Assembly (NCBI RefSeq): GCF_964355755.1 | Contig: NC_092676.1 | Location: 8,104,288-8,168,287, forward strand | Direction: 5' to 3' | Source of the DNA: Antedon mediterranea | Lineage: Eukaryota > Echinodermata > Crinoidea > Comatulida > Antedonidae | DNA: 64,000 nt | Shown: positions 7,153 through 60,966 of the stretch, piece after piece | How positions within the stretch are numbered: position 1 is the first letter of the stretch | Layout: each line of letters starts with the position of its first letter | Made by a program: the position numbers and the translations under genes | Notes under the pieces: generated by a model | Seen by the model: the letters and a program-made list of their open reading frames with translations, nothing else | The model's database searches: none | What the model was told of the DNA's origin: nothing

Positions 7153-9677
7153 TGACAAGTCCTGGGAAGTAAGAATATGTAAAAATATGTAAATTATTAT
7201 TTGATTATTATATTATTTTTAACAGATGGTATATAGCCAACACAGTCCCCCTCCCCCATCCGTCGACATACATAAACAATGTGTGTTATTAACACTATCA
7301 TTTCTTCCTATTTAAGAAATCGTCAAATAATGTGTAAACAAAAAATTAATATGATATTGTCAAATGTTATATTGATTTTTCACTGTGTAAATTTACCAAA
7401 CAACCATATAATCTAAAATCAAAATTACATTTTGAATATGCATCATTTTATAACTCCCTTGATATCATATTAATTTCATAAAACTCAGTATGATATTATT
7501 TTGGTATATTAAAAACAATTTTCGTTTTCTCGACATCCATAGATTATACTCCTTTACTGCATGTCCACACTGAGAATGTAAACACGCTGAGTAAGGAGTA
7601 TATTAGAGTAAAAACTAAATATTACAATCACAGCCGTGACTTAATACCGCTATTCTACACGCACCTGGTTATAGACTACATTATATAATTGCACTCCAAA
7701 TAATGTAAAAACACGTAGACCAATTACCAAACTCATGAGAATAATTTGTTCAGCAATCATGAAGTTGTAAGTCTAAAAGGACATCTCGTTTACAGATTCT
7801 CTATATTGCTTACAAATCACGTACATACAATTCTATATCGGCTTTCATGTTTTTATTACCTATAGCTTATCACAAATTATGTTTATTGTTTGAATAATGT
7901 TTATTACCAATCTGTCTATTTGTACGAATGAAGCTTGATAGAAAAAAAACGGCAATATTTAATTTAAGATTTCATTTTCCTGTTTACAGATAATTGTTTA
8001 TATTGTTACAAATCACGTCCACATAATTTATTTTATCTCATATTTATCTATTTTTACGAATATAAGAAAACTACTGTATAATATACTTTTTTTGTCTTGT
8101 GTGGGTTCGTCCCTATTACGTCATGAGGTAATTTCCCGATTGATCGTAATCAAAACGGTACTGGGTTTGGTCTACTAGCGTTCCTGCTCCCAACCAGTAC
8201 ATCCATTCATAGAAGCCTTAATGAAGTAAGCCTACCTGGTGGTGGCCATAGAACGGTCCCGAGATAACGACTATACTTCGGCTTTAGTCGATAGAAGATT
8301 GAATAAATTGTTAGAGATAGAGTATACGATGTTATGATTATGTGTAGATATGTGATTTGTTCTTTTTATTCCAATGATGTTATGTATTTAATAAATTTGT
8401 TATATCAATTAATTAAATTATCGTAGATTGCATATTATGCGATGAATATTATTTAATAAATTTTTGATATATTATTATTATTATATTAATAAAAAAGATA
8501 TTTGTTAGTATAAATTAAAAAATATAGATATAAGGAAGAAAAGCAAAGAGATTATGGAGCGGCTGTACCAGAATATACAATACTAAGTATTGTAAAGTTA
8601 ATATATTAAAAATTTAGGCGATCTTGTCAAAGGTCAAGCGCCTTCAGCCTGCCACGTTTCGATATTCAATATTGAACTTGACCTATAAGCTTATAGTTCT
8701 CTGTTATAAATATAATAATATATATATGCACATTTATATATTTCTCTTATTTATAAGGTACATTGCTAAAAAATACATATCTTTTAAACAGTATATACAT
8801 AGGCTAAGATTATTTTGATGTTAAAAAGAAACCACAATTACATTTATTTACATTTTTAAAAATACAATTAGTTAAAATATATAGATTGCAATAAAATGAG
8901 GATAAAAATTGATTTTTAAAAAAACGTACTTATGAAAAAGTGGTTATTGTTGTTTTATTCTGTTCGTGTCCTTGTCTGGGTAGAGAGTCTATAAACTCAG
9001 GGGAGGAATATAAAGTATCTTCCCTCTTCACCTAGACAAAAATGGATGATAATACTGTAATTATAATAATCATTTTTATATCGTTAATGAACACCCGATT
9101 CGCCGTACAGAGACCCCTGCTGTATCTCCATAATGACATCATGTTACCGTATATTCAGCCAAATTCTGTAATCAGTGTAACATTATCATATATGGTGCAT
9201 GTATTAATTTTATGGTTAGGTTAGGCGTATGGCATATGATACAGGCTACTCATGTGATACATGCACTGTATCACAGAATGTGCCTGTGATACTGTTTTAC
9301 AGTACCGAGGATCGGTTATTTATTATATTGAAGTATAGGCTGATAAAGATTATCATAATTATCATGCCAATGTTTTGTATCATTATCAGTGTCTAAACTA
9401 TCACCACAAAACCAATTCACGTTGTATTGATGTTAACACTATAATAAATCGATGATGAAAAGATAAGAAGATTAAGGATAATTATATGAAAATGGTTATT
9501 GCTCGTAACAAAAGCTATAATAGGCAATTCACAATGCAATAATACAATGGCCATGTACAGGCTACATGGGTGCAATTTACAATGACAAATATTGGAAAAT
9601 GCTTATGAATAACGCTCATATTTAATGATCTTTACAGGTGACAGAAACTAATAGGCTACCTTTTAGATTGTGAAGGC

Positions 9678-12600
9678 ATGGCTCCACATATCCGTGCTGT
9701 TGAGGAAGGCTATGTAAAACTAGATAGGAATAAAAACGCAGCGAAGTCACTAAGGAATAAGAAGATGAAGTTTAGATGTCGAAGATGTTTCTGCAGCCCG
9801 TATACTATGGCCACTGCGATCATTGTCTGCTGGGTAATCTGGTTCGTGTTGTGGATATACGCAATAAGTGACGTCGAGAAGCACGGGGAGCTGGTGACGT
9901 TGCCGATGGAAGTGGCCAATCGTCGAGGTGCTTTCTGTCTTGATGGATCTCCGCCTGGTTACTATATAAGAAAAGGTATTAAGCCTACTCATTATTACGT
10001 TAGGAAGCTTTTAATTTGCGACAGGACATATGACCTATTGTGCCGTTGGTCACGCCCGGACAGAACTGCGCTGGGGTGATGGTAGAACAAGACTTCTAGA
10101 GGATAAAGACTATAAACCGTCGGTCCAGTGTACAAATCTAGCTCATGTGCACTTTAAAGAACCTAGTATATCTTTCGAGACGAGTAGGGGGTTTTCCCCG
10201 GTGTAGGCATACTATATACAGCCACTGTCACACACATACAATTGTCATAACTCATCATGAGGGCCCCTTGATTGTCAGCATACACTGTTCAGGGTCACCC
10301 TCTATAAATAGGGTTGAATAAAATAAATGACGTATTCGTTCTTAATTTCAAGTTTGTCGCAAATTGAAACCTCCCAATTAATTCATCTTTTTCATCTTAA
10401 TTCTTCAGTTATTGCCAATTATAATCATTTTGGCGAAATTTATACCTCTCACGGTTTTCTCACATTGTCTCATCTGATTACAATTGTCAGTTTGTACATG
10501 ATCTTGAGATATCACACCCATCACTTTGTAACTGAACTTGTACAAGAATTCCATAAGATAGCAAGTGTACTTATCCAATATTGATGGATAGTACTCTTAA
10601 TAAACTAAGTGACGTTCGTTTTAATTAGCTGACTTCTAATTGACCATGATTTATTAGTGTTTGCGTCCGTCCACTCTTCTCTTGACAACTGATGTCTCTA
10701 TTTACATCATTATAATTAGAGAGCTGTTCTGCTGGACACGATGGTTTAACCATGAAAATGTTTCTGTTAATGTTTTTAAAAATGTTTTATTAAAAGCAGT
10801 CCTAACATGTTAAAATATTGAATTTCGAGACTCCATAAAACACACAGAGAATGATAAAGAAAATAATTAAAGTACATAACTTTCAACGGCCAATGAAATA
10901 AAAATAATACTATTAAACAGGAAAGAGTGAAATGATATTCAATTAAATTCATTCTTCCCTGCTAAAGTATTAGGAGCGCTCCTATAAGAGACACTCAAAT
11001 ATCCATGTTAACACCATGATAAATGTACTTTCAAGGGTAGACCTACACCTCTACCTGCTTTAGAACCTTAGATCATCCGTGAGCAAAAGAACCTTTATCT
11101 AAATTCGTTTGTCTATTGACCAGACAATTGTACCTAACACCCCTTACACCAAAAACACCGGGGCGTCAACTCGGGAGTGTCTCCGGAGTTTTTCTTTTGG
11201 TGTGAAAGGGTATTAGTTAATATGCTATCATCTAATTTCAGCTGGAGAAGAAGACGAAAAATCGTGGGTGATCATTTTAGAAGGTGGTGACTGGTGTTGG
11301 AATGTTACAGACTGCTATGAAAGAAGTCTCACTACATTAGGCTCCACTACCTACGGTCCTGATAAAGTGGACTTTAACGGTATACTGTCGAATGATAGAC
11401 TTGTAAATCCAGATTTTTACAACTGGAATGCTGTATTGATAAAATATTGTGATGGTGGTTCATTTTCTGGTAAGTGCAGTCTAATAGTACTTTCCTATTA
11501 GTTTGTAAGAATGTTCCAAGTACACTTACAATGATGGTTGTTGCTGATGTTTGTTAGCACGACATCGTCCACTGTTTTTTATCCTGGTTGCTTTTAAACT
11601 ATAGGCCTTAACCAACAGACCATGCTTATTGATTTCCATAAATATCGATATATTGCTGACGTTAAAAAAGCTTAATAAAATCTCGAGTTATCTGTATCTC
11701 ATAAGAGAAAGCGTTTGTACGGATTTGTTTTCCCAGGGAAGGGTGAAATTAATTTCACTTTTTCCTGGTTTTCCAAATGTTTGCTATTACTGCCCGTATC
11801 CAACACACAGGGTATTCTGGGAAGACTTTTTGAAACCTGCCCCGTGTTGATATTTTTCTAAAGTTCTGTCTGTACTATCATACTTTATGTGACCAGAAAT
11901 GTGATGCGGCCAAATATGGACATGATGATATTTTAGCCCTACCATACCACATATCATATGGCATACCACTACCATATTTGAGTACATCACACTTTTTTGT
12001 CGAACTAGTTTGGTAGTGTAGACAAAAAATGTGATGGGGCCATATATGGACATGGTGATATCTTAGCACTACCATATTTTGGCATATCATTACGATATTG
12101 AGCACATCCCACTTTTTTGTCGAACTAGTTTGATAGTGTAGACAAAAAATGCGATGTGCCCATATATGGACATGATGATGTCATATCACTACCATTATTA
12201 TTTAAACATATTACTTACCGTATTTGGGCAAATCACACTTTTTTTGTCAAACTAGTTTGTAGACTAGCGTAGACAGAGCTTAAGTCGTCAACAAAATATT
12301 AAATAGCTCTCTGAATTTGTATTTCGCTTAGTTTCTGAGCGTTTGATTTATTATATTCTGATTTATGAATATAACAGTACGTGTCATCATATCCTATCAC
12401 TAATCTTTGTCACTTATGCTTTACCTTCACTAACACAATATGTATTTTTTCCTTAGGCAATCTATCATTTCCAGTAAATTACAAAAATAAGAACTTGTAC
12501 TTACGAGGAATAAGGATACTAGATACTGTAATGAAGCACCTGAAGGACACGGAAGGTCTTGACTCGGCAACAAGGGTGATATTCGGCGGTGCATCAAGTA

Positions 12601-15205
12601 ATTTATTTTATAATTAATACCTGTATCAGTGTTCTCCCACTAATAATAATAATAATAATAATAATAGTACGTCGATCTTATAAGCCTCTTAGCGCTTCAA
12701 TTACCACTTGTTTGTATCAAACCCGCCTGGAAACATACTACCATGATGTTGCAGTTGTGTTTTTACCTATACTAGAAATGAATTCCGGCAATTATTATTG
12801 CTATTGATACTATATTAAGCTCTGTCTACACTATCAAACTTTATGTGACAAACAAATGTGAAGTGCCAATATATGGATATGATAATGTCATATCACTACC
12901 ATATTTAAGCATATCATTAACATGGGCACATCATACGTTTTTTTGTCAAACTAGTTTTATAGTGTGGACAGAGCTTAAACCAGATAATATTGTACTTTGT
13001 CCATCCGATTGACAAAATATAACCGTTGCATGCTCTATGGCTATGTTTTAATGGCTAGGCCTAACCAATGCAACCATGGCATAACCTACCACTAGATAAT
13101 CTTTTATTTGAATGTTGAATTAATTTAATTAAGAATAATTAAATCAACAGCAATATAAAGAAAAATGCATTATCGTCGTGTGGTGTAATATTCCATCCTT
13201 CCACTGTGTCTGCTTTTATAGAATTTTGGATCGGTTAATTCAATTTCGAAATAAATAATAATCTCGGAGAATAGGACCTGAAATTTTAATTATTCCATAC
13301 TGAATTTAATTTTCATATTGATTTATTTATCATTATGCATGTCATTTCTTATTCAAAATGTAATTATTTTAAATATTATTACCATTATATTATCATATTA
13401 TTTATATTAGGTGGCGGCTTAGCAGTATTTGCCCATTCGGATCACGTTCGGAACATGTTCGACCCGAGTGTTAAGTTCCATGCTCTTGCAGATGGTGGAT
13501 TCCTACCAATGATACGTAACACATCAAACTACCAGAACTTTATGGTTTCTTTACAACGAGTTTACAATTTACATCAAGTTTTAACAGGTAATTAGGCCAA
13601 GCTTAAAGATGTATTGTCCTCCTCAAAAAAACAATTCTTTAAAAATGTTTTGTTGAATATGCAATTTTAATGTCACATAATATTTATCCATTTTGACCAA
13701 AAAATTGTATCGAAAAAAAATATTTACCTGAAAAAAATTGTAATTTAAAGCAAAAAATAGTCAAATTGGCTGCCAGCCATTATTTTTTTTCATTTTATAA
13801 GTGTAAACATGATTTATTTTTCGTTCTTTTTCTACGGAAGTGATTAACTTTATTAAATACAAAATAACCTATTCAAAGTCTGATTTAATTAATCATGTTT
13901 TTGGGGGATGATACATCTTTAAGGGAAACAACTTTTCGATTTGTACGTCGGCTATTTGGAATTACTAATTTACTCGGCTAGCACGTCAGGCAATACGTCA
14001 TAGACATAGTTATGTTACTGAATTGGCTCGTTTCATCAACATTTTCAGCAAGATTACCTTACCAAGTAATGCATCATAGTTAGGGCTTACAGCAGTTACG
14101 TGCACGACCTCTCGTTAAACCGATGCTGTTGTTTTATCCAATTAAACATAATATAAATATTCATTTTTTAAAACATCTTAATTAGCAAAATCTTTCGAAA
14201 GTGCGTCAATAATACTAAAAGAAATATTTTAAAGTTTTTCCATAATTCAAGTAATTAGGTTACGCCATCAATCAATCAATCGTTCGATTAATAGGCCTAT
14301 AATATCAGAAAATGTGAGTTTTGAATAGTGATTTACATGTGCTCAATAATGATGTTTGTTCAAATGGAGGTGGATCCAGAGCCTGGGTCCAGCAATAGGC
14401 CTACTAAAACTATGTTTGCAATTTAAACAAAGGAAAATAGAATAGTCAATCAAGTGACGAATTAGGTCTTTTTAAAAATGTCATACGCATCCAACAAAGA
14501 AATTCGCTAATTACAGGATGGCAAATATTACTATTATGCTTATAAACTATATTAGTCTTATTTGAGCCTAAAGGAGTAGAGTGGAATTAGTCCGACTGAT
14601 GAGTTACAATCCGGGACCTTGAAAGCCTGGCATAACCACAAAGACTATTTTTATTTTATTTTATGACAACATTATAAAACCTTTATGTTTTCACAGGATC
14701 ACTTAACAAGGCTTGTCTTGCGTCAAAGGTTCAAAGTGAAGCACAGTGGCAATGCTTCTTCCCAGAGTTCGTCTACCCTCACATAAAATCAAAGATATTC
14801 ATTCTCGATTCGATGCATAACGCCTGGTCTCTGTGGTACATTCTAAACACAAGATGTCATCCGTCCAAATGCAAGGCAGAGCAGGCGAATATCAATCGAT
14901 ATCAAAGCGAATTCATTAACCTCATTTCACCAGTACAGGCGTCAAAGAAAGACGGCATGTATGTGACGTCTTGCTTTGTGGAAGATCAGTCTCAATGTGA
15001 CCATAAATGGAATAAAGCAGTATTTAACGATCAGTCTCCTCAAGAGGCGTTCCACGATTGGTATTTTGCGGCTAATGTTAACCCTCATGCCAGGCAAATA
15101 GACTGCCAAGACAAATATGATTGTAATGCACAATGTGACTGGAGCACTTACGCTTATGACAAAATTACACGGGAGTATGAAAAGAAGGATTTCTTTGTTG
15201 TTTAA
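9678..15205 (+). CDS. pectinacetylesterase/Notum-family protein, membrane-anchored, probably catalytically inactive
   Basis: Five coding exons: 9678-9975, 11242-11469, 12457-12597, 13411-13587, 14697-15205, all with GT/AG ends and phase 1 junctions, giving 450 residues. Residues 44-64 form one hydrophobic helix after a basic, Cys-rich segment, so a type II membrane anchor is likely. The rest follows the PAE fold: EGGDWCW (cf. EGGWYCF in Notum), NPDFYNWN, KYCDGGSFSG, GGASSGG around Ser222, and a Cys-rich end. The order and wording resemble plant and protist pectinacetylesterases more than secreted Notum. The family triad is Ser-Asp-His. Here the Asp position in the (Y/F)D.W motif is Asn323 and the His position in SC.AHCQ is Glu377, so hydrolysis is doubtful. 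Introns hold MITE copies. A polyadenylation signal lies at 15316-15321. Family assignment is firm; the substrate is unknown. Confidence 0.88.
10100..10320 (+). repeat. SINE S1, 5'-truncated
   Basis: Body of the S1 family in intron 1 of gene 1: 'aaccgtcggtccagtgtaca', 'ctttaaagaacctagta', 'gacgagtagggggtt', 'cccggtgta' and the end 'agggtcaccctctataaata'. The tRNA-like head seen at 28.7 kb is absent. Confidence 0.75.
11128..11222. repeat. short foldback element
   Basis: Inverted arms 'ctaacaccccttacaccaaa' and 'tttggtgtgaaagggtatta' flank an inner stem around 'ctccgga'. The hairpin ends about 20 bp before the acceptor of exon 2 of gene 1. Confidence 0.6.
11860..12281. repeat. MITE family A, three units fused
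   Basis: The terminal sequence 'gtcgaactagtttgatagtg' runs straight into a new left arm twice ('tagacaaaaaatgtgat'), giving three linked units in intron 2 of gene 1. The outer ends are 'aagttctgtctgtacta' and 'gtagacagagctta'. Confidence 0.85.
12641..12665. repeat. (TAA)n microsatellite
   Basis: A run of about eight TAA units just after exon 3 of gene 1. Confidence 0.9.
12816..12977. repeat. MITE family A copy
   Basis: Complete copy flanked by TTAA at both ends: left arm 'gctctgtctacactatcaaa', right arm 'tatagtgtggacagagc'. It lies in intron 3 of gene 1. Confidence 0.88.
13603..13922. repeat. MITE family E copy 1
   Basis: Ends are inverted: 'ttaaagatgtattgtcc' and 'ggatgatacatctttaa'. The inside shares 'gttgaatatgcaattttaat', 'gtcaaattggctgccagcca' and 'ttgggggat' with copies at 17953, 24723 and 36810. 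It starts 15 bp after exon 4 of gene 1. Confidence 0.85.
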
Positions 15206-16045
15206 TATCATTTTCCGTGTGTATCTCTATTCATACGACGACCGTCCTATTTTGTTGAAGAAAATATCGCTGTATCTTTTTGCGTTTGCCCTAAGTATAA
15301 TAAGCAGGGCCATGGAATAAACATTTTTCTCCATGGTATAGAGATACAGTTTCAACAGACTGCAGTATCTTCGTTTGGCGAGTTTCTCTTTTTTTTCGGA
15401 TAGGCTTAACTTATAGACTTGTTTTTAATAATAGCTAGCTTACTTAAGATCAGAAATAGGCCTTAGATGTTATTAGTACGAGCTTTATTTGGATTGTAGA
15501 TATTTAAATATAAAATATCGAATTAGATGATAAAACCAAAGAAAGGCAAAAGTGGTAATTGTAATATTGAAATAATATTTAGTGTTTTTTTTTTTAATTT
15601 TCAATACATTTTTTATGATCAATATTTTTCTCTTTTTACATTTCAATTTATTAACATTTTATTTGATTTGAAAATGTAATTTGCACTCTACTAAGAAATC
15701 CAAAACAAATATTGATAAATACCGAATATTATCTTATTACGAGTCAGGTTTATGGAGAATCAGGTAATTATTATGCCAAACCATGCGTATCTAAAAGCAA
15801 TTAACATTGAATTAGCTCACGCTCTTGAGCTTAACGTGAAATTCATTCAATCATAACATTACGTATCGCCACAGGCACTATAACATTTAGCTTAACTTTA
15901 AATCCTTTATTAGATTATCCAGTATTCGATTATTTAATAATGAAGTTTGTATATAGAGTGAGTTAAAGCAACAATGCTGTCAAAGGTCTTTTTATACAAC
16001 TCTCTGTTCTAACGTAGTAAATTGATGATGGTTATGTTTATCCTT

Positions 16046-16224
16046 AAACTCTGTGTACACTATCAAACTAGTTCGACAAAAACAAACTCTGTGTACACTA
16101 TCAAACTAGTTTGACAAAAACAAGAATGTGATGTACCCATATGGTAGTGATGACGCCATTATGTCCATATGGGCACATCACATTTTTATCCCATAAAGTT
16201 TGATAGTGTTGTTGACTGAGCTAA
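16046..16224. repeat. MITE family A copy with duplicated left end
   Basis: The left arm 'ctctgtgtacactatcaaac' occurs twice, 36 bp apart, before a single inner part and right arm. Confidence 0.8.
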
Positions 16225-16405
16225 AGCTTGGTTATTACTTGGACGCAAATCAGCAACGCCGTAAGCGCAACGTGAGTTGACCAATCACAAGCGACAGTTT
16301 TGATGATCCATCAAGTCATGATTGGTCAAATTATTTAAAAGCCTGGTTCCTATTTGGACGTAGCGCAACGACGAAAATCACAAGGCGACAGTTCGGACGA
16401 TCCTC
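16225..16405. repeat. MITE family B, degenerate
   Basis: Follows the family A copy directly. Words such as 'gttgaccaatcacaagcgac', 'tgattggtcaaat' and a second 'gcctggttcctatttggacg' suggest two overlapping or rearranged family B pieces. Confidence 0.6.
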
Positions 16406-37234: not shown

Positions 37235-40200
37235 ATGACATCATCTGAAGATGTACTGTTGATTGTCGGTCAAGTGAAACACAAGAAAACTGACGGAAGT
37301 CTTTATTTAATGGCAGAACGATTAGCATGGCAAGGCCAACATGCTGATCATTTTGCTATCAGCTACCTCTATGCAGATATACGCCGTAAGTCTCAACATT
37401 CTGCATGACATGTTTTTTCTCTTTTTAACATCATTTACTTTTAAAATTATGGTCATTTTTTTTTAATGACATCATCATGTCCATATATAGGCACATCACA
37501 TTTTTTGTCACATAAAGTTTAATAGTGTAGGCAGAGCTTTAGGAAATTAATTTATTATTATTTATATTATTCTTTTTGTTTTTTTTGTGCACATTTTTGC
37601 ATCAACAAATTTATATTGAACCTATATTGTTATGCGCAGTTTTTCACAATTCAAAATACTCAATTCAAATTGAGCATAAAATTTCAAACTGTTTTTCAGT
37701 GTTATTGATGAAACCAAAGCTTGATAACCTTATATCCTTAACCATAACACGACATAAAGCTCAACCCTAAACTTTAACCCCAAAACGCTTTTCATGTGTG
37801 CCCTTTATTTCAATAGTTCTATTCTAAAATGTCTGATTTTTAAATTTATATATGAAAAATATACTTTAATGCTTTTTTGTTTCACAGAGCAAAAGATAAG
37901 CCCAGAAGGCAAGCCCAAGATTCAGTTACAGATAGTACTGCATGATGACAAGGCGGCCACGTTTCTGTTCAACAACCGAGAAGGTCAAAGTGCACAGCTA
38001 CAAGATCGAAATTCAGTCAAAGAGTTACTTCAACAAATTCTACCAAAGTTTAAGAATAAAACAAATAAAGAATTAGAAGAGAAAAACAGGTTGGTAGAAC
38101 AATTTTAATTAGGTCTTAAGATCTGTCTACACTATCTATATGACAAAAGTATGATATGCCCAAATATCACAGTGATATGTCCAAATATGGCAGTGATATG
38201 TCCAAATATGGCAGGGTTATGTCCAAATATGGCAGGGATATGTCCAAATATTGTAGTGAAATAACATCATCATGTCCATATTATTGGCACATCACATTTT
38301 TTGTGACATCAAGTTTGATAGTGTAGAGAGAGCTTTATGAAATTTAAAAAATTCTTTTCAACAGAAATTTAAGAAAAAAATTTATCTTTTGTTTATTCTC
38401 TTTTTGTTGTTTTTTATGCACATTTTTGTAAGGTAAAAAAAAATAAATCTTGATCATTTATTCCATAGAATGCTAAAAGAAGACCCTAAACTATATAATC
38501 TATACAAAGATTTAGTAGTAAGTGGCGTGATAACCGCTGAAGAGTTTTGGTCATCAAGAAAAGAAGTAGGTTCATTTACATTGATAGGAAGCAACCTAGG
38601 GCGTAAATTACGCATTACATCATTTGTCCAAGTTGTTTTCTAGCTGTGTTCAATCAATTTTCCTGTTTACCATACACCCAAAAATAGTTGGATAAGGACT
38701 ACTATATAAACCGTAGGTCCAGTGTACACATCTAGCCCATATGCACTTCCAAGATGAATAAAAGGTTACCCCGGTGTACTAGTACACACACAGCCACTGT
38801 CACACACAGCCACTGGGACCTCTGAGAGAACAGTCTTTGACTGAAGAGGCTACCCAGTATAAAGAAATATTAATAATAATAATAATAAAATAAATAAGGT
38901 ATTATATATAAAACAGTTGAACAATTTTGTTGTTATTGTAGCAAGTTGAAGGAATGAAAAATAACCAACAAGTTGGTGTATCAGCAGCGTTCTTAGCTGA
39001 CATCAAACCACAGGCGGATGGATGCAATGGGGTGAAATATAATCTAACAGTGGATGACATTCAGGCTATCTTCAAAACATACCCAGCTGGTGAGATTCCA
39101 TAGAACAGTTTATGTTTCATTTATAAAAATAGAGTTAGTAATAACCCCTCTTTTGGGACACCTAGTGGATACTTTCATTTAAGATGAACAAGAGGAAATA
39201 TATGTTCTAACACTACGTCAAGCCCCTATTCAGGGGACACCCCTATATGTGTCAACACTACACCTGTTCTAACACTACGGAAAACACCTCTATTCAGGGG
39301 GACACCCCTTTATATGTCAAACACTACACCTGTTCTAACACTACGGCAAATGTCTCTATTCAGAGGACACCCCTATATGTGTCAACAATACACCTATTCT
39401 AACACTACGGCAAATGTCTCTATTCAGAGGACACCCCTATATGTGTCAACAATACACCTATTCTAACACTACGGTAAATGTCTCTATTCAGGGGACACCC
39501 CTATATGTGTCAACAATACACCTATTCTAACACTACGGAAAACACCTCTATTCAGGGGGACACCCCTTTATATGTCAAACACTACACCTGTTTTAACACT
39601 ACGTCAAGCCCCTATTCAGGGGAAACCCCTATATGTGTCAACAATACACCTATTCTAACACTACGGAAAACACCACTATTCAAGGGACACCCCTTTATAT
39701 GTCAAACACTACACCTGTTCTAACACTACGGCAAATGTCTCTATTCAGGGGACACTCCTATATTTGTCAACACTATACAGCCACTTTGTTGGATCACAAA
39801 GTTGTCCCATAAATAATGGTCCTACTTTATTAAATAAATAGTATATATATATTAATATTACATAGCCTATGTAAATACGCTAACGTGATTGGTTGAAACT
39901 GCATCACATGACTACCGCTGCGAGGATCGTAAATCGTATATATCCTCGAGAACGATGATATTGACTGTGTAATTTTCGCGTAATTATCGTGTCCCCTGTC
40001 ATTAAACATATAGATTCTCGAGTACGATGATATTGACTGTGTAATTTTCGTGTGCCAACACTCGCGTTGCCGATAAATAAACAAAAGTCATCAACTCGAT
40101 CTTGAACTCGGGTGGAATTGTCACTCCATCGCAAGACAACGCTTCAACCGTTGCGCCACGGAAGTTGCTTGAAGAAATTAATCTTCTAAACTATTTAAAC

Positions 40201-43200: not shown

Positions 43201-46200
43201 GAGAAGATTCACAAAAAAGAAAATAAACAGACTAATAATTATGATAAAAATATATATAAATATAAACATATTTATTACAAAAATAGGAGCATTAAAGTGG
43301 GAAAATGTTGAAACACTCCGACAGTGTCTAGCCATAACAGATTTTTGTGGTCAGATGTTGAGTTTCGGATTTCAATGGGTAGTGCATTTAGCATGAACGG
43401 TTTTTTTTTATAGAAAACTGAAGAACTGAACTGAAGAAAAGGAAACATGTTATTTCTGCTCCTTAAAACATTTCTTAAAAGCCCTTTCAAAAGAGGGACT
43501 GAGCTGACTGGGACCAACTCTGATTCCACCCAGGCACCACCTCTGAATCCACACAGACACCACCTCTGAATCCACCCAAGCACCACCTCTGAATCCACCC
43601 AGACACCACCTCCGAACCCACCCAGGTATTACCTCTGAATTCACCCAGGCACCACCTCTGCATCCACCCAGGCACCACCTCTGAATCCACCCAGGCACCA
43701 CCCCTGAATCCACCCAGGCACCACCTATGAATCCACCCAGGCACCACCTATGAATCCACCCAGGCACCACTTCTGAATCCACCCAGGCACCACCTCTGAA
43801 TCCACCCAGGCACCACCTCTGAATCCACCCAGGCACCACTTTTGAATCCACCCAGGCACCACCTCTGAATCCACCCAGGCACCACCCCTGAATCCACCCA
43901 GGCACCACCTCTGAATCCACCCAATTTCTTTTATTTTATTGTTTTGAATAGAAATTAAAAGAATATGGGACGTTTTGTAACTTGGAAAAAGAGCTGATTT
44001 TGGGACAGGGGTGTTGGTGTGGTCTTGGGGTGCTTCCTCGCTTGATTCATCTGGACAGTTTTGGCAGATTCTATATTTAGGAGTTGACCGACAGCACAAA
44101 AACTGTAGTGTATCGCAAATCAAAAGCTCTCTACTATGTCTAGTTTTGAGAAAGTAGACAGCATAGCTTATAATGTAGTAGCATTTCACCCAGGGCAATA
44201 GACAAAAATTGAATAACAATGATATTATTTATAGCTATATAACTGATACACCTAAATTCTTCAGCCTTTCCTATCGGCTCTCTACTTTCATCCAATATAG
44301 ACATTAATGATATTCAATTTATTTATTGCATTCCACGTTGAATAGCTTAAAGCACTTAACATTTTCTCTGGCCCTGTCATTCAACCTTACGTAATGTGTG
44401 GCTATTACAGTCAGTTGGGAGTATCTACACTTTATGCATAATACTCTAATGAATAGTTTATCTTCATTGTGATGTGTTCATCCAACATTTATAGGCTCCA
44501 CTAGGGTACAATATCTGTCACCATTTTAAGATAAACATTTAAATGCTTGTACTGGAAATTATTATAGTGTTTAATTGTCCTGAGAGCTGTACACAATTCT
44601 TACATAAAGGTCTTTAAAGATAGTATCTTAAGCTGGAATTTTTTATTTAATTTTAACATTTTTTCCAATGATAAAAAATATAGAAAAGCCCAAAAAATAT
44701 GAAATCACATTACTTGCACTCAATCCCATTATAGCTTCATTATGATCTGCAAAGGGATCGTTGTATTATTAACTTTTTTTGCTAATAAAATTAGAAATTT
44801 ATTTTAACAAATATTTTAAACGATTCAATTTTTAAAGTTTACTTGGAAAGAAATCTGTTGAAATTGAAGCTTCCACCTGACTGGGAAAAAGAATGTAGAA
44901 AAGAAAATAAATTTAATCATGTCATTTAATTTTTTTTATATAAGGGCTTTACCTAATTTATTTGCAATTATTTTGGTTTTATGTTTAAAATTATATTTTT
45001 ATATTAAATAATAATAATATTGTTTGGACATCACCTTTTTTATCTCATGAGATTTTTCATTTTATCAACCGTAAAACGAAATGTTGTCTTTTCAGAATAA
45101 AAATAAATAAATTACAATAAATTTTAATCTGTAAAAATTTGTAAAAGTAAAATTACTTGATTTACGATATATTCTGTTGTTGTTATTCTTATTTGCAGGT
45201 TGTTCCAAGCAATTTGTCAAGTTCAGTTATGAGTGAGCTGACCCCAGGAGGCCTGTTAATGGCATCCAGCGCACAGAAACCATTGCATTGTATGTTACTA
45301 TTATTGAAAAATTGTTTTACTTATTTTTGCCGGATGACCTCGTTTCATTCTATGGTATTTTTTTTTATTGAAAAACTCAAATAACGGCTTATTGTAACAG
45401 TACCCTTGATTAAGATTTATGTGAGGGCGTGTGGCGCAGTGTGTTGGATGCTGGATTACTGATCGTGAGATTTTGGTTCGAATCCAACTCTCGCCGCATT
45501 GCTTGTATCCATGACACTTTACTTACATTTGCCTTTATCTACCCAGGTGTATTAAATGGGTACCCGGTTAGATCAGGACACAACTTTGCGCTGATTACTA
45601 ACTGCATTGTGGGAGTATGTTTCCAAATGTGTTTGATCCTTAAAATTACCAGGGTAATAATGTGTTATGTAAAGCGCTTTTGAGTATGATTATTCATAGA
45701 AAGGGCTCTATAGAAATGTGGTATTATAATTATTATGTAGCTATTAACAAAAATTAATTTTTAGCTCTCTACACTCAAGACATCCAACGAGAGATGAAAC
45801 GTCTGTACACCAGCCTCTCAGAGCTTCTACGACACTTCTGGGCTTGTTTCCCGGTTACCAATAAAACGTTAGAAGACCGGCTATGCCGCATGAAAGCCAA
45901 TTTGGAACAATTCAAAGAGAAAAAATTAAAACCGTTTAAAATAGATTTGGCAAGACAACATATTGGTGGAAACGTAAGTGGTTTCCGATGCCATGCGGCT
46001 TTTCGTTTTGTTCCTGTGGTTTTAGTAATCCCAAAGGGAAACATCTACTTTGTGTGTTATTTGGTTGAACATTCTGTTTTATTGCCATTCAAATTTTTCT
46101 ATAAATGTAACGCCTCAAAATATCAGTTATTGCTGTGGCTCTTTTGTAATAATGTGATTTCACCAATTACTGAAACATATTCGGAATTTTGAATCCTTTC

Positions 46201-60013: not shown

Positions 60014-60966
60014 ATGCAGTTAGTTATTCTATGCTTGGCATTATTATGGCCATGTACAGTTCTCACAGACGAAACACCAACAGCACTGAGGAACCCAGGT
60101 AGCGCAATTGATTTGGCAAATTTTGTTACATAAAAATAACTACATTGTATAAAATCTGTCGACAGACTTTCGTAATTGCATTAGATTACTTCGTGAAAAA
60201 GTTTGCAGAAACTTTTCTTCTTAATTCAATGTTAATAAGGTATTGATCGTTATAGTTTGATAACTTTTGCATAGAAGATGTTAGCCTACCTTTATTTTAC
60301 ACTTCCCAAATTAAACCATTTTCTCAATGAATGTATATCACATATTAATCGATAATACGAGTGGAGACATTCAATAAGATGATTAAGAGTTCATCCTGAT
60401 CCATCAGTCTCCTTATAGGCTGTCATTTTTATCGTCAGACGAAGAAAATTACATTATTACAGGTTTCTTTTTTTTTTACAGATTTAGAAAACGATATTTT
60501 TCAACAAGGATTCGACCGTGCGTTATTTTTACACAATTTAAGAGAGAAGCATGTGCTGGCCTATATAATAAAAGCAGCTGCAGAGGATTTACTAGCTAAC
60601 GAGGCTTTACAGATGAAACCATACGAAGGCAATGACTCGCCGTCTGAGTCGAATGTTGCAGTTACTGAAGACGATATGGAATACGAAACGACTAGAAGCA
60701 GTGACGGAACTGATGTGTCAAAACGAGGTAACTGTCCTGGAGATCGATGTCTTCGTATCAAGAAAAAACCAAAACAGACAAGCTCGTGTTCACACAACGC
60801 GTGCTTGCGTATACTACCATTTGGAAAGCGCGCTTTGGGGTCACGTGGTGTGCAATTTAAACGACCTTCCTCAGGCAGCAAAACAAGAAGCACCAGTGGA
60901 GGCGGCGGTGGTGGAAGAACAAATCTGCGTCCATCTTTTCCATTTGGTAAAAAAGATTACGAATAA
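60014..60966 (+). CDS. neuropeptide precursor, kisspeptin-type candidate
   Basis: Two coding exons, 60014-60098 and 60482-60966, phase 1 junction, 189 residues. Residues 1-18 are a signal peptide. An acidic spacer leads to a KR site (109-110). Peptide 1 (111-142, 32 residues) has two Cys-x4-Cys pairs (C113/C118 and C131/C136), each followed by LRI, and ends ILPF-G-KR, so it would be amidated; a KKK site inside it could release a shorter form. A short segment (146-154) is bounded by KR. Peptide 2 (157-183) is Ser/Gly-rich and ends SFPF-G-KK, again amidated. Two amidated Pro-Phe peptides, the first with a disulphide, match what I recall of echinoderm kisspeptin-type precursors. The precursor call is firm; the family is probable. 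An acceptor at 59993-59994 implies a 5' non-coding exon. Confidence 0.82.

Follow-up and report, generated by a model that had tools for sequence, protein, structure and literature searches.

A predicted crinoid membrane protein with a plant-type pectin acetylesterase domain and a substituted, probably inactive catalytic triad

The window analysed here is a stretch of 64,000 nucleotides from the crinoid Antedon mediterranea (NCBI RefSeq assembly GCF_964355755.1, contig NC_092676.1, positions 8,104,288 to 8,168,287 of the forward strand), and positions are counted from its first letter. A gene at 9678-15205 on the plus strand consists of five exons separated by GT-AG introns and encodes a protein of 450 residues in one continuous frame, as a sequence-only reading of this DNA had claimed when it described the frame as undamaged across five exons. 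The gene is laid out as follows.

9678-9975, plus strand: exon 1, residues 1-99, with the predicted cytosolic tail, the transmembrane segment and the start of the lumenal domain; GT donor at 9976
9804-9869, plus strand: residues 43-64, predicted to span the membrane (the 19-residue Kyte-Doolittle mean peaks at 2.36, at residue 45)
11242-11469, plus strand: exon 2, with the oxyanion glycines Gly114-Gly115 (GGDWC), NWN and YCDG
12457-12597, plus strand: exon 3, running to the nucleophile elbow
13411-13587, plus strand: exon 4 of the spliced model
14697-15205, plus strand: exon 5, which contains the stop codon and the two triad positions that are substituted

The start codon is preceded by an in-frame stop at 9639, and 449 codons would stay free of stops by chance with a probability of about 1e-15 on base composition alone. 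The GC content, approximately 0.42, is coding-like, compared with 0.33 in the window. Near the N-terminus a single, strongly hydrophobic segment (approximately residues 42-64) follows a Lys/Arg-rich tail, and the positive-inside rule predicts a type II membrane protein with its N-terminus inside. What may be a small mobile element, a dispersed repeat of the form CTGTCTACACTATCAAACT...AAAAATGTGATGTGCCCATATATGG..., sits in introns of the gene (approximately 11860-12275 and 12820-12975), downstream of it (approximately 16045-16225) and near the Notum gene of the same genome (L005, approximately 520-690).

Residues 78-407 match the Pfam family PF03283 (pectin acetylesterase, PAE) at 284.8 bits over model positions 15-352 of 355, while the curated cut-off is 26.6 bits and the crinoid's own Notum, whose triad is intact, scores 233.2 bits. 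All four signatures of plant-type PAEs (CE13) in a published motif list, namely CLDG, GGxWC, NWN and YCDG, are present (PMC5465549), and together with the Pfam score they bear out the earlier claim that the rest of the fold signature is intact. The likeness to the plant enzymes comprises these signatures, the Ser of a GxSxG-type elbow and a full-length Pfam match, whereas the crinoid protein differs in its predicted N-terminal membrane anchor and in the plant catalytic motifs GCSxG, NxayDxwQ and HCQ, in place of which it has GASSG, DSMHNAWS and EDQ. Human NOTUM and the crinoid's own Notum align with it in the PF03283 domain, the oxyanion Gly-Gly, the nucleophile Ser and a CFF stretch, but identity is about 25-27% (25% to the own Notum), and Notum is secreted and has an intact triad. 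Where Notum has CNDG, NAN, YCSSD and DEAQ, the window protein has CLDG, NWN, YCDGG and NAWS, and its GGxWC signature is GGWYC or GGTYC in the two Notum proteins. The earlier label of a PAE/Notum-family protein holds at the level of PF03283, while the subtype signatures are those of plant-type PAEs and not those of Notum. A ten-member tree, built without plant sequences and with long branches, placed the window protein outside a well-supported Notum pair and resolved little else; a wider clade joining it with Notum was not rejected (p-AU 0.41).

The human NOTUM triad consists of Ser232, Asp340 and His389 (PMC8172013), and that of plant PAEs has been placed in the three catalytic motifs named above (PMC5465549). 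The corresponding positions of the window gene are the following.

12594-12596, plus strand: Ser222, the family nucleophile, kept (GASSGG), aligned with human Ser232
14807-14830, plus strand: DSMHNAWS, the counterpart of plant NxayDxwQ, with Asp319, Asn323 and Ser326 in place of Asn, Asp and Gln
14819-14821, plus strand: Asn323 (AAC) at the catalytic Asp position (MHNAW), aligned with human Asp340
14981-14983, plus strand: Glu377 (GAA) at the catalytic His position (SCFVEDQ), aligned with human His389

These residues and codon coordinates are exactly those given by the sequence-only reading for a broken triad, and the placement was the same in an alignment with human NOTUM, the own Notum and a Chloroflexi member as in a pairwise alignment with the own Notum. 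In a profile built from seven other members, read by eye and with low confidence, the lost positions appear to be shifted by one residue, to Ala324 and Asp378, and even this placement puts no Asp at the first position and no His at the second, so that neither residue is restored. The three residues were found together in all nine other members compared, which comprised human NOTUM, the own Notum, five proteins from bacteria (L012, Aureibacter, Burkholderia, L014 and L015) and two from viral contigs (L019 and L020, whose triads were read by eye from translations), and in the five-member bacterial alignment Ser, Asp and His are among 18 invariant columns. The His nearest to Glu377 is His384, seven residues further on, with none within six residues. 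The Cys that follows the His was also reported lost, which is true in comparison with the HCQ of plant PAEs (PMC5465549). However, human NOTUM (SHE) and the own Notum (GHM) likewise have no Cys there; its absence is for this reason not diagnostic, and we rejected it as evidence of inactivity.

A search of the genome returned two PF03283 genes, the window gene and a canonical Notum of 557 residues and 14 exons with an intact triad, located on the minus strand of the same chromosome (G000:C7:6265259-6273589, in L005 and L006) at 1.85 Mb from the window gene. The search found no second copy of the window gene and no third PF03283 or Notum-like gene, although such an absence is not proof. An intron of the own Notum splits the catalytic Ser codon (phase 2), and that of the window gene lies two bases further, in the next codon (phase 1); the two may be one shared intron that slid, or may be independent. 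Relatives were sought in bacterial, archaeal, viral and plasmid collections. A scan of genome contigs gave one relative, with 3 of 400 genomes of its phylum over the cut-off, and a scan of plasmids gave two. Viral contigs gave no relatives when scanned twice with alignments headed by the window protein and once with the protein itself, and two relatives when scanned with bacterial members; a scan of phages gave none, and NCBIfam gave no useful match. The proteins at L020 1842-2924 and L019 263-1246, both on IMG/VR viral contigs, are PAE-family members with intact Ser-Asp-His, and a neighbour of the former resembles, by eye, a phage single-stranded DNA-binding protein.

Judged from its sequence, the window protein has probably lost catalysis. 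The usual general base is absent from a Ser-Asn-Glu arrangement. The sequence-only reading had stated that all three residues are needed for hydrolysis in Notum and in plant PAEs; this stands for the Ser of human NOTUM, whose replacement (S232A) abolishes activity (PMC6323125), whereas the roles in plant PAEs were inferred from alignment, and that of the His 'remains to be formally demonstrated' (PMC5465549). No experimental test of the NOTUM Asp or His was found in the literature examined. The protein might still be an enzyme with a rebuilt site, for example one in which Asp319 works with His322 or His384, or in which Glu377 serves as the base. Ser222 and the oxyanion glycines persist, the Asn of the plant motif is Asp319 here, as if Asn and Asp had been swapped inside one motif, and His384 shares a loop region with Glu377; an unusual water-mediated triad is also described in another esterase family, CE20 (PMC12313940). 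We nevertheless consider a rebuilt site unlikely, as the standard positions are used by every other member compared, the arrangement itself offers no usual base, His384 lies seven residues beyond where the family has its His, and His322 adjoins the Asp position and not the His position. Two AlphaFold models, one covering the whole protein and run with one relative (pLDDT 42), the other covering the domain and run with three (pLDDT 47), were both weak in the C-terminal half and too weak to place Asp319, His322 and His384 relative to Ser222, so no argument on the triad is drawn from them. The first approximately 200 residues of the second model match Notum structures, which adds little to the sequence match.

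That the gene appears to be maintained rests on its open frame, its intact splice sites and a PF03283 score above that of the own Notum. A gene in early decay, whose function was lost in the lineage and in which stops have yet to gather, would also be compatible with a single copy and with the loss of two triad residues, but we consider this quite improbable given the 450-codon open frame, the intact state of every splice site, the coding-like GC content and the high profile score. The signature motifs away from the active site have persisted and the Pfam score is higher than the own Notum's, which argues that decay is not general, and several multi-base changes in the active site with the rest kept imply a long time without decay. 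That the substitutions stem from an assembly error, a faulty gene model or a single unusual allele is highly improbable: they were read from one assembly and Asn323 by itself is one base from Asp, but the Glu377 codon would need two base changes to encode His and so is not a one-base error, Ser326 (TCT) is more than one base from the Gln of the plant motif, both sites lie in one long exon, and the genome search turned up no other gene resembling Notum or matching PF03283. We also looked near the gene for an overlooked alternative exon carrying an intact motif and found none.

The reading that we favour, and hold to be rather likely, is that the gene encodes a type II membrane protein whose extracytosolic, plant-type PAE domain (PF03283, CE13-like) has lost hydrolysis and has a pocket that may bind a ligand. 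The nucleophile and oxyanion glycines are retained, while Asn replaces the charge-relay Asp and Glu replaces the general-base His. With no His to activate Ser222, an ester or glycan ligand may sit in the pocket but would not be turned over, and the domain, tethered to the membrane, could then serve as a binding module on the cell surface or within the secretory pathway. The remaining function would most simply be binding, through the emptied pocket or through another surface of the tethered domain; that the old pocket itself binds a ligand is conceivable, at somewhat less than even chances. The 'binding or decoy' role proposed by the sequence-only reading is one that we can only infer. An acetylated or otherwise substituted glycan seems a likelier ligand than the Wnt lipid, which is disfavoured because the Notum-specific signatures are absent. 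Of the residues that we take to line the Notum lipid pocket, Phe319 and Phe320 are kept as Phe302 and Phe303, while neighbours differ (Trp128 to Asp116, Ala342 to Trp325 and Phe268 to Leu254); this comparison is weak, since the choice of residues is presumed and one presumed position misfitted the sequence.

In animals, discussion of this family usually centres on Notum, an enzyme that turns Wnt signals off. If an echinoderm also has a member that is of plant type, bound to the membrane and apparently dead, this would point to reuse of the family for binding. More speculatively, and with rather low probability, a crinoid lineage, or a broader echinoderm one, has retained a dead, membrane-tethered PAE that traps acylated or acetylated ligands in the manner of a receptor, alongside a Notum whose triad is intact. 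If true, such a trap would be the first inactive protein described in the PAE/Notum family; a search of largely open-access literature found no account of a pseudoenzyme among Notum or PAE proteins. Pseudoenzymes are common across hydrolase families, so the surprise is moderate. The pectinase pseudoenzymes of herbivorous beetles are likewise catalytically dead carbohydrate-active members kept in an animal genome, but they belong to an expanded multigene family of plant cell wall-degrading enzymes (PMC6549527), whereas the crinoid gene is a single copy of the PAE family.

Other features lie elsewhere in the window.

37758-38108, plus strand: an exon of the TFIIH p62 subunit (GTF2H1), with a PF08567 match and PDB matches to TFIIH subunit 1
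43275-44228, minus strand: a tandem repeat, probably a minisatellite, open in more than one frame
60400-60966, plus strand: a probable neuropeptide precursor of the kisspeptin type, with SSCSHNACLRILPF-GKR (the first) and RTNLRPSFPF-GKK as its two PF-amide peptides

The KP1.1 peptides of three crinoids have two Cys and a C-terminal RxLPFamide, and the disulphide was speculated by the authors of that study to be uniquely retained in crinoids (PMC9793003); the two Cys of SSCSHNACLRILPF suggest that the genome is most likely a crinoid's, since they match this KP1.1 type.
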